Below are positions 11,708 through 15,296 of a stretch of DNA of 53,543 nucleotides, in pieces. The stretch's first letter is position 1, and the number at the start of each line of letters is the position of its first letter. The notes under the pieces are model-generated. The model did no database searches, was not told the DNA's origin, and was given only the letters and a program-made list of their open reading frames with translations. This stretch comes from Ruminococcus sp. (GTDB taxonomy: Bacteria > Bacillota > Clostridia > Oscillospirales > Ruminococcaceae). The position numbers and the translations under genes are program-made. Location: positions 1 through 53,543 of the forward strand of contig JAFYFU010000118.1 in the NCBI GenBank assembly GCA_017543595.1, given 5' to 3'.

Positions 11708-12763
11708 ATGAAATCTTTTATTAAAATTTTTCTTTTGGTTATATTTGCATTTTTCTGCCTCACGGAAACTCAGACCGTAAAGGGAAATATAAATAATTCA
11801 GTAATTCGCTGTCTTGAAACGGTAATACCCTCTCTTTATGCCATGATGATAATATCCTCTCTGCTGACGAAAAGCGGACTGATTTCAAGAATATCGGGAT
11901 ATACGGGAATATTTCCGCCCGTCTTTTTATTTTCCGCATTTGCAGGCTATCCTGTCGGGATAAAAATACTCTGTGACGAGTACCAAAAGGGAAGTATTTC
12001 CAAAAAGCAGGCTGAATTTATGTCGGGGCTTTGTTACGGTGCAGGGAGTGCCTTTATAAACGGCTGCATTGCGGGGAAACTCTACGGGCAGGGAAACACG
12101 GGAAACATAATACTTATATCAACGGTTTCCGCAAATATAATTCTTTCAATTCCGATTATATTTTTTATCAAAAAAGCAAAAGTTAAAAATAATTCCGAAA
12201 TAAATATATCTTTTAATCTTCTCAATAACTGCATAACCGAAAGCGGAAAGTCAATGGCTGTCATATGCATGAGCATAGTTTCTTTTTCGGTCATTACGGC
12301 ATTTCTGAAATCCACGGGGATAATTTCAGTTACAGGGGATTTTATTTCGGAAATAATCGGCAGGGACAGAAATATATGCGAAAGCATGATATATACTTTA
12401 ATTGATATAACAAATGCGGAGAATCTCCCCAAAGGGGAATATTTGCTTTTGCCGTTTCTTTGCTTTGTAACGTCATTCGGCGGACTATGCGTAATATTCC
12501 AGTTAAAGGCACTGACAAACGGAAAAATCTCTCTCCTGCCCGTCATTTGTCTGAGGCTTTTAAGCGGAGTTCTGAGCGGAATAATCTGCCGTCTGATAAT
12601 GCCTTTCATGATTTGCGGAGAAGCCGTATATGTATCGGTGAATATGGGTATTCATAAGGCGGAATCCCCTGTGCCGTCAGTAATGCTGATACTTATGACA
12701 TTCTTTATATTTAAAGACAATAAATATAACAGGGGGGCTTGGGGGGAATCAGCCGCCCCTTGA
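11708..12763 (+). CDS. ylbJ: YlbJ (SpoVV) family membrane protein
   Basis: 351 residues, about eight hydrophobic segments, with the hallmark SAFAGYPVGIKI motif (about residues 75-86) and the NGCIAG/GYP-like re-entrant pattern of nucleoside-gate proteins. Bacillus YlbJ/SpoVV brings dipicolinate into the forespore. It is divergent from yqfC across 66 bases. The last 12 or so codons (from about 12731) and the stop codon are family-2 repeat sequence (GAWGESAAP), so the natural C-terminus has been replaced or extended by the repeat. The ATG has a weak GGTGAT ribosome site. Confidence 0.82.
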   Translation: MKSFIKIFLLVIFAFFCLTETQTVKGNINNSVIRCLETVIPSLYAMMIISSLLTKSGLISRISGYTGIFPPVFLFSAFAGYPVGIKILCDEYQKGSISKKQAEFMSGLCYGAGSAFINGCIAGKLYGQGNTGNIILISTVSANIILSIPIIFFIKKAKVKNNSEINISFNLLNNCITESGKSMAVICMSIVSFSVITAFLKSTGIISVTGDFISEIIGRDRNICESMIYTLIDITNAENLPKGEYLLLPFLCFVTSFGGLCVIFQLKALTNGKISLLPVICLRLLSGVLSGIICRLIMPFMICGEAVYVSVNMGIHKAESPVPSVMLILMTFFIFKDNKYNRGAWGESAAP

Positions 12764-12780
12764 CCTGAAAGTGAACGGAG
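12731..12780 (+). repeat. Family-2 repeat, truncated, overlapping the ylbJ 3' end
   Basis: Begins AGGGGGGCTTGGGGGG as at 11306, continues through AGCCGCCCCTTGACCTG and stops in the loop at GTGAACGGAGCA, where a family-1 unit takes over. Confidence 0.85.
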
Positions 12781-12783
12781 CAT

Positions 12784-12877
12784 GAGGAAAATTTGCGCCT
12801 TGTGCTGAGAATGAACGCAGCGCAGCGGAGTGAATGAAAGCACAAGCCTGAAAAGCGCAAATTTGACGATTTTAAAT
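12784..12877 (+). repeat. Family-1 hairpin repeat, third stem variant
   Basis: Outer arms AAATTTGCGC/GCGCAAATTT as in the 5984 copy, but inner arms CTTGTGCT/AGCACAAG: both sides changed together. It lies between ylbJ and the hydG-operon promoter. Confidence 0.92.
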
Positions 12878-12913
12878 AGTTATGCTCTACTAACAAAATT
12901 AATATTATTCCGC

Positions 12914-12943
12914 TTGACTTGAAACATGAAGATATGATATAAT
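12914..12943 (+). promoter_or_regulatory. Promoter of the TM1266-hydG operon
   Basis: TTGACT (12914-12919), 18-base spacer, TATAAT (12938-12943). Transcription should start near 12950, exactly at the first strand of the leader's long-range stem. Confidence 0.82.
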
Positions 12944-12948
12944 TAAAG

Positions 12949-13068
12949 ACACGGGCAGTCGGATTGTATTCGGCTATCGGTTCTTTGTAATGTATAGTTA
13001 TCGGTTCGGAATTTCCTGTTCCGAATCGTCTTAGAGCTGTCTGTCCGTGCGTACGGGCAGATTTTTTT
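12949..13068 (+). promoter_or_regulatory. Candidate riboswitch/attenuator leader of the hydG operon
   Basis: The 5' strand CACGGGCAG (12950-12958) can pair over 9 bp with CTGTCCGTG (13041-13049), closing a multibranch domain that holds a 10-bp hairpin (13002-13011 with 13019-13028) and a weaker one (12972-12977 with 12994-12999). The same CTGTCCGT is also the left arm of a terminator with ACGGGCAG at 13053-13060, an exact second copy of 12951-12958. The two folds exclude each other, the usual layout of a metabolite-controlled terminator in which the closed domain allows read-through. I do not recognise it as any known riboswitch class; the ligand is unknown. Confidence 0.7.
13041..13068 (+). 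terminator. Regulated terminator in the hydG leader
   Basis: CTGTCCGT/ACGGGCAG, 8 bp with one G-U pair, GCGT loop, followed by a seven-T run. It ends 25 bases before the start codon of the first gene. Confidence 0.85.
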
Positions 13069-15190: not shown

Positions 15191-15196
15191 ATTCAG

Positions 15197-15296
15197 GCAA
15201 TTCGCACGTTCGGTTTTTACGGGTTGGTGTGCTTTTCGGCATTGTCCGTAAGTCAAGCCGTGCGGAGGACTATATTAACCAATTTTTAAGGAGGAC
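15197..15296 (+). promoter_or_regulatory. Structured 5' leader of rpsB
   Basis: Nested pairings are visible: CGCACG (15203-15208) with CGTGCG (15259-15264), and inside it TTACGG (15217-15222) with CCGTAA (15246-15251). The ribosome site AAGGAGG follows at 15290-15296. A structured leader before rpsB fits feedback control by free S2, as known for many ribosomal protein operons; direct evidence is only the pairing. Confidence 0.55.

Follow-up and report, generated by a model that had tools for sequence, protein, structure and literature searches.

What controls the hydrogenase maturation genes of this Ruminococcus sp., and what kind of RNA precedes them? In the window (the whole 53,543-nucleotide stretch of DNA that was analysed), the gene for a TM1266 family protein and hydG follow a structured leader that ends in a terminator (Table 1), and the original prediction took this leader for a new riboswitch-like attenuator controlling TM1266-hydG. 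We give an even chance to the reading that it belongs to a double-hairpin leader family, so far uncatalogued, by which [FeFe]-hydrogenase maturation genes are attenuated, working as an OFF attenuator whose factor is most likely TM1266. The TM1266 family (PF21699, TIGR03959) is named as a putative regulator of the iron-only hydrogenase system, and PDB 2nzc is titled hypothetical protein. The portions of the literature that were searched hold no RNA partner or mechanism for TM1266, no leader of this kind (a 2017 survey of 224 RNA motifs lay outside that search) and no account of how anaerobes set the levels of their H-cluster assembly enzymes; the word 'hydrogenase' is absent from the main texts of PMC11109978 and PMC8632094. 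A Clostridia-wide leader RNA family with defined pairs, tied to TM1266, would open the level control of these enzymes to direct tests; it could also assign a function to TM1266, and it would offer a lever on fermentative hydrogen output in rumen and gut.

The leader in the window

Table 1. Features of the leader and of the genes behind it, in positions of the window.
Feature	Position	Strand	Basis
Promoter-like site, TTGACT - 18 - TATAAT	12914..12943	+	Consensus scan, 11/12 matches
Leader RNA (P1, P2, linker, terminator)	12950..13068	+	Covariance model R1
Hairpin P1	12951..12980	+	R1 alignment; helix covaries in relatives
Hairpin P2, divergent in window species	13002..13028	+	Fold, alignment to R1 and A2
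Intrinsic terminator GTCTGTCCGT-gcgt-ACGGGCAGAT + T7	13039..13068	+	Terminator scan, fold
TM1266 family protein, 82 aa	13093..13341	+	TIGR03959; PF21699; relative of PDB 2nzc
hydG, 483 aa	13352..14803	+	TIGR03955

That the leader stands before hydrogenase maturation genes was confirmed by the identification of TM1266 (TIGR03959) and hydG (TIGR03955). Within it, CTGTCCGT (13041-13048) is complementary to ACGGGCAG at either 12951-12958 or 13053-13060, forming 8 pairs, one of them G.U; the letters, coordinates and pairings originally given for these two copies were all correct. The proposed terminator formed by the second copy was likewise borne out, with a stem at 13039-13062 and the T7 run at 13062-13068, and the promoter-like site places the transcript start near 12950, in agreement with a predicted start at the first copy. 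The claim that ACGGGCAG occurs exactly twice is true inside the leader but not window-wide, where it has four copies on the + strand and seven on both strands, compared with a shuffle mean of 0.66.

The RNA is more stably folded than shuffled versions of itself, both as a whole (12950-13068, z -4.29) and up to 13049 (12950-13049, z -4.59), and in either case 0/200 shuffles equalled it. When the transcript is folded as it grows, the pair 12954-13045 has a probability of 1.0 at 13049, 0.995 at 13056 and 0.001 at 13062, by which point the terminator has displaced the pairing of the first ACGGGCAG copy with 13041-13048. At equilibrium the terminator reaches -41.1 kcal/mol, compared with -36.1 kcal/mol when the antiterminator is forced. 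The multibranch domain of about 100 nt, originally thought to be closed by the first copy, is one possible fold but not the conserved one: in relatives, the strand matching this copy is the 5' side of hairpin P1. In the window, P1 is composed of ACGGGCAG as 5' strand, GGATTGTATTC as loop side and CTATCGG as 3' strand, and in P2 all positions are paired, without a G.G mismatch, as judged from the fold and the R1 alignment.

No known class was found for the internal sequence, nor had the original prediction matched it to one: a search of the window leader against Rfam 15 gave no family at or above the gathering cut-off. Five further Ruminococcus loci gave below-cut-off matches only, 16 class loci (i.e. 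loci from the class Clostridia) gave only a 5S rRNA beside one of them (L258), and four of these 16, rescanned at E<=0.5, gave no match. The sole Rfam family reaching its gathering score in the window is an ordinary T-box leader (1861-2087, - strand, 113.5 bits), which precedes an asparaginyl-tRNA synthetase-like gene at 436-1920. Two other stretches can be mentioned here: a long leader with inverted stretches at 15195-15290, before an rpsB-like gene, is a possible ribosomal-protein leader without an Rfam match, and the intergenic stretch directly before the promoter (12763-12880) has inverted ends, AATTTGCGC ... GCGCAAATT, and is a possible small repeat element.

Relatives in Ruminococcus and across the class

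TM1266 is present in 103 of the 125 genomes of the genus, and the stretches upstream of these loci (relatives include R. flavefaciens FD-1, SAb67 and YAD2003) have a structured leader in common. Alignment A1, which contains the cores of 35 Ruminococcus leaders, has a structure of two hairpins with one unpaired G.G position each; 91.9% of its cells are paired, 13 of its 23 pairs have changed on both sides, and its covariation score is 0.457, compared with 0.091-0.162 when the partner is slid by 1 to 3 columns. The larger alignment A2, whose 95 leaders were fitted to the model and are hence biased towards it, scores 0.507 (0.052-0.135 when slid).

Covariance model R1, from whose training set the window is absent, finds the window leader at 12950-13038 with 26.1 bits and an E-value of 1.5e-4, E-values of these models being rough by the tool's own statement; the runner-up place in the window has 12.9 bits. 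At E<=0.1, R1 matches 99 of the 125 genus genomes, and of 98 matches kept, one per genome, 97 lie upstream of TM1266 on the same strand, the 98th (G037) being on a split contig. A covariance-model search, the kind of check originally proposed, shows that the leader is not a one-off, since 97/125 Ruminococcus genomes have it at most 1.1 kb upstream of TM1266: within 320 nt in 70 of the 97, and at 875-1041 nt in the remaining 27. In all four distant loci that were read (L007, L009, L024 and L027), a lipase-like open frame lies between leader and TM1266; an NCBIfam search of the one in L007 (626-1501) returned no name. By plain blastn of the leader against 297 family genomes, only the window itself and short matches, taken as chance, were found, which indicates that the RNA conserves structure and not sequence.

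Secondary R1 places, 16 further and weaker matches in 13 genus genomes, reach 31.3 bits at best; no hydrogenase gene or like leader was seen at the five of the 16 that were read, nor at the lone match of G016. In two loci (L200, G016:C60; L201, G024:C62), a lone P1-like hairpin (ATAGGATTTATTCTAT) with an R1 score of about 28 bits recurs directly before a permease-like gene, and G030 and G037 have R1 matches of the same length as this hairpin. Among family genomes of other genera, 15 have R1 matches at E<=0.01; six of these precede TM1266, including the five best (L167, L168, L171, L172, L173 and L179), and the remaining nine (E 0.001-0.01), with no TM1266 in the fetched locus, were taken as chance. 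Covariance model R2, run on 345 genomes of the order, matched the window's genome and G201, besides three further genomes (E 0.006-0.009) taken as chance, and in a class sample of 341 genomes it matched the window's genome only. Among 80 named TM1266 loci it found, at E<=0.01, the 18 nearest, many of them genomes already in the earlier sets, together with L252 and L228, and it missed three loci titled Ruminococcus (L233, L242 and L245).

The Ruminococcus-type leader is ordered as P1, P2, each usually with a G.G mismatch, and terminator; a simple script recovered a terminator in 102 of 104 leaders. In A2, G occupies the two mismatch positions of P1 in 86 and 91 of the 95 rows, and those of P2 in 86 and 88; P1 conserves a GGATTTATTC loop side, and P2 conserves TTTTCGG ... 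TATCGGA. The window leader has the GGATTTATTC-type loop side and CGG/CGG mismatch of P1, and a terminator before the TM1266 operon, and its P2 is fully paired, lacking the G.G mismatch. It is a divergent Ruminococcus member, in which P1 and the terminator are retained and P2 is altered.

Across the class, leaders read by eye reveal a second, related design, CTGAC-stem-RA ... RA-stem-GAAGG followed by a terminator, in which 4 pairs separate two 2x2 purine loops. Model R3 was built from A5, an alignment of 18 hand-trimmed class-wide leaders with 92.7% of positions paired and a covariation score of 0.783 (0.074-0.176 when slid). The held-out set consisted of 90 TM1266 regions from a class-wide sample, 30 of them with about 3 kb around the gene and 60 with the upstream 280-520 nt only. 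At E<=0.1, R3 gave 33 matches in 30 of these loci and no match in the other 60; all matches are on the strand of the gene, 31 upstream of TM1266 and two between hydE and hydG. In 27 of 51 leaders, a hairpin within the 75 nt ahead of P2 equals or exceeds the top 5% of mononucleotide shuffles in stability, and in several (L291, L304, L251 and L254) it has the same loop pattern, so the class-wide motif can occur in tandem. The class-wide hairpin also precedes TM1266 outside Clostridia, in Loigolactobacillus rennini (L232, 2374-2413; an R3 training row).

The two designs meet in L252, which combines a Ruminococcus-type P1 (R2, 30.3 bits) with a class-wide P2 (R3, 32.4 bits) and which L172 resembles by eye. 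On 28 Ruminococcus-type sources R3 matched this bridge only, with L172 and L228 among the 27 missed, and the window leader gives no match to R3, the model of a hairpin with CTGA / GAAGG strands and two 2x2 purine loops. Common descent of the two designs, resting on few bridges, is likely but short of proof.

The antiterminator strand and the genes that carry the RNA

The strand acting as antiterminator was sought by comparing the pairing of four leader strands with their own terminator arm to that with the arms of other leaders. In the full Ruminococcus-type set (n=94), the 3' strand of P2 is the only one of the four that beats chance (-9.10, compared with -8.14, sd 0.18, when permuted; 0/2000). 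The closing stem of the original prediction, considered as a shared antiterminator (P15, the 5' strand of P1), was rejected, as its own pairing of -8.32 equals the permuted -8.35 (p 0.57). The refuting condition set by the original prediction thus gives a split result: fold and terminator are conserved, whereas covariation lends no support to the 12950/13049 stem, which on these data is a local feature at best. When the Ruminococcus leaders are thinned to 71, 40 and 25, the P2 3' strand has p <1/3000, 0.084 and 0.095; at 40 and 25 the P2 5' strand is slightly better (p 0.036 and 0.028), so that the Ruminococcus data favour P2 without firmly singling out one of its strands.

For the class-wide leaders, pairing between the P2 3' strand and the terminator arm of the same leader scores -9.27, compared with -7.62 (sd 0.31) when permuted (0/5000), and the 5' strand is not beyond chance (p 0.26). 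The 3' strand holds in the 27 held-out leaders alone (p 0.008) and on thinning to 37, 19 and 14 leaders (p <1/5000, 0.012 and 0.028), the 5' strand also falling below 0.05 at 14 (p 0.018). The P2 3' strand thus matches the terminator arm of its leader beyond chance, firmly so class-wide and more weakly in Ruminococcus without close relatives. In the window, the complementarity between this strand and the terminator arm looks poor by eye, and the 5' strand of P1 may serve as antiterminator in its place.

The RNA is found at more genes than those first proposed. Among 20 class genomes picked for a leader match, 19 were matched by R3 at E<=0.3, the best place being the TM1266 leader in 17; in G1003 it was a hydG site, and in G1019 it lay elsewhere than at TM1266; two Ruminococcus genomes gave no match (G000) and one other place (G008). 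A further 40 genomes, of which 20 lack TM1266 and 20 have it but had contributed no R3 leader to the collection, gave 14 matches. The three best stand before hydF (G859), before hydG (G838) and before hydG over its ribosome site (G996), and a weaker one covers the hydF ribosome site (G830); these are the four loci at hyd genes (L404, L405, L406 and L411), and the other 10 (E 0.004-0.22), without a hyd gene and in several cases coding-like by eye, were taken as noise. In G838, a genome 97% complete in which no TM1266 was found, the hairpin precedes hydG; three of the 20 TM1266-negative genomes have hydG and one of the three has the RNA, the other two loci (L418 and L420) giving no R3 match. Among the named loci, further R3 matches lie directly after TM1266 and before hydF in L246 (E 0.0013) and, in other loci, before hydG (L273, E 0.018; L267, at E 3.8 only).

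The hairpin is also found between TM1266 and a NifH-like gene (stretch 2501-3638 of L244, E 0.014) and between TM1266 and a BtuC/FecCD permease gene (stretch 2501-4183 of L265, E 0.034); the neighbour of TM1266 in these two loci is not a hydrogenase gene.

The RNA belongs to the H-cluster maturation genes, with TM1266 as its most constant neighbour in a collection in which most loci were found via TM1266. What had been described as control of TM1266-hydG stands insofar as an attenuator-type leader is there, but the range is wider, including TM1266-hydE, hydF, hydG and internal copies over ribosome sites.

Mechanism, binder and known systems

From the covarying hairpins, the terminator, the location at TM1266, hydE, hydF or hydG and the complementarity of the P2 3' strand to the terminator 5' arm, all of them computed, we infer the following model. 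When P2 is unbound, its 3' strand would pair with the terminator arm and transcription would continue; a factor holding P2 closed would free the arm, allowing terminator formation and so shutting the operon off. Where an internal copy precedes hydG or hydF, this hairpin would cover the ribosome site. Terminator and covered ribosome site would both be OFF with the hairpin held closed, which fits feedback repression. As a guess from gene order, TM1266 itself, possibly ligand-bound, is the likeliest candidate for this factor. In its full form, the proposal is that TM1266, a small protein conserved alongside [FeFe] hydrogenases, acts in attenuation by binding RNA: it would recognise tandem purine-loop hairpins and, throughout Clostridia, repress its own gene together with hydE, hydF and hydG. 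This is tentative, and we place it somewhat short of even; if true, it would amount to a dedicated RNA-based control of H-cluster assembly. TM1266 is suggested as binder by its place beside the RNA even at loci whose following gene has no hydrogenase role, and by the tandem sites, which suit an oligomeric protein; the RNA before hydG in G838, without detectable TM1266, argues against it as the only binder.

A small-molecule aptamer is almost as likely as a site for TM1266. The metabolite- or metal-controlled switch of the original prediction is a candidate only: tandem like hairpins adjoining TM1266 would suit an operator bound by protein no less than an aptamer. The riboswitch explanation, possible and itself tentative, holds that each hairpin acts as a small aptamer whose ligand is some metabolite or ion involved in H-cluster assembly (named candidates are tyrosine, SAM, p-cresol, iron and an Fe-CO/CN product), that binding to P2 leads to termination or a hidden ribosome site, and that TM1266 is merely in the regulon. 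The G838 locus would be expected on this explanation, as would the control of several genes of one pathway through both terminator and ribosome-site outputs and the conserved unpaired purines and G.G, but the RNA adjoins TM1266 also at the NifH-like and permease loci, the few conserved bases sit in symmetric internal loops, and no ligand is known. That some other RNA-binding protein uses the RNA as its operator, or that a general protein binds it at a k-turn-like site, is improbable: several genes are under control, and some leaders have tandem hairpins with like purine loops, but no other gene was seen to keep company with the RNA, and the A5 loops are 2x2 and not a 3-nt bulge. A constitutive terminator behind a stable but unregulated leader is very improbable, for although the terminator wins at equilibrium in the window, P1 and P2 covary, unpaired bases are conserved, the antiterminator complementarity is present and internal copies cover ribosome sites.

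Whichever factor binds, an attenuator leader is a known kind of control; the RNA family itself is apparently uncatalogued, in no Rfam entry found. A kink-turn has a 3-nt bulge beside tandem sheared G.A, and the loops of A5 are symmetric, 2x2. The mini-ykkC (guanidine-II) riboswitch is a small leader with tandem small hairpins, as is the present one, but it has ACGR tetraloops, in place of which the present leader has conserved internal loops, and it gave no Rfam match. ANTAR antiterminators share with it two similar hairpins ahead of a terminator, with hexaloops carrying A1 and G4 in both; in the present leader the loops are variable (by eye in A1, the P1 loop side is GATTTATT and the P2 loops vary, without the ANTAR hexaloop), the internal loops are conserved, and P2 is apart from the terminator. 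In PyrR-type attenuation, the leader belongs to an operon encoding its own RNA-binding regulator and sets an antiterminator against a terminator. The PyrR model (RF00515) matches weakly over the leader (16.9 bits, compared with a gathering score of 54), and the present leader differs in its loops, its genes and its tandem hairpins, but shares with this system the layout of an operon with its own putative regulator, antiterminator against terminator.
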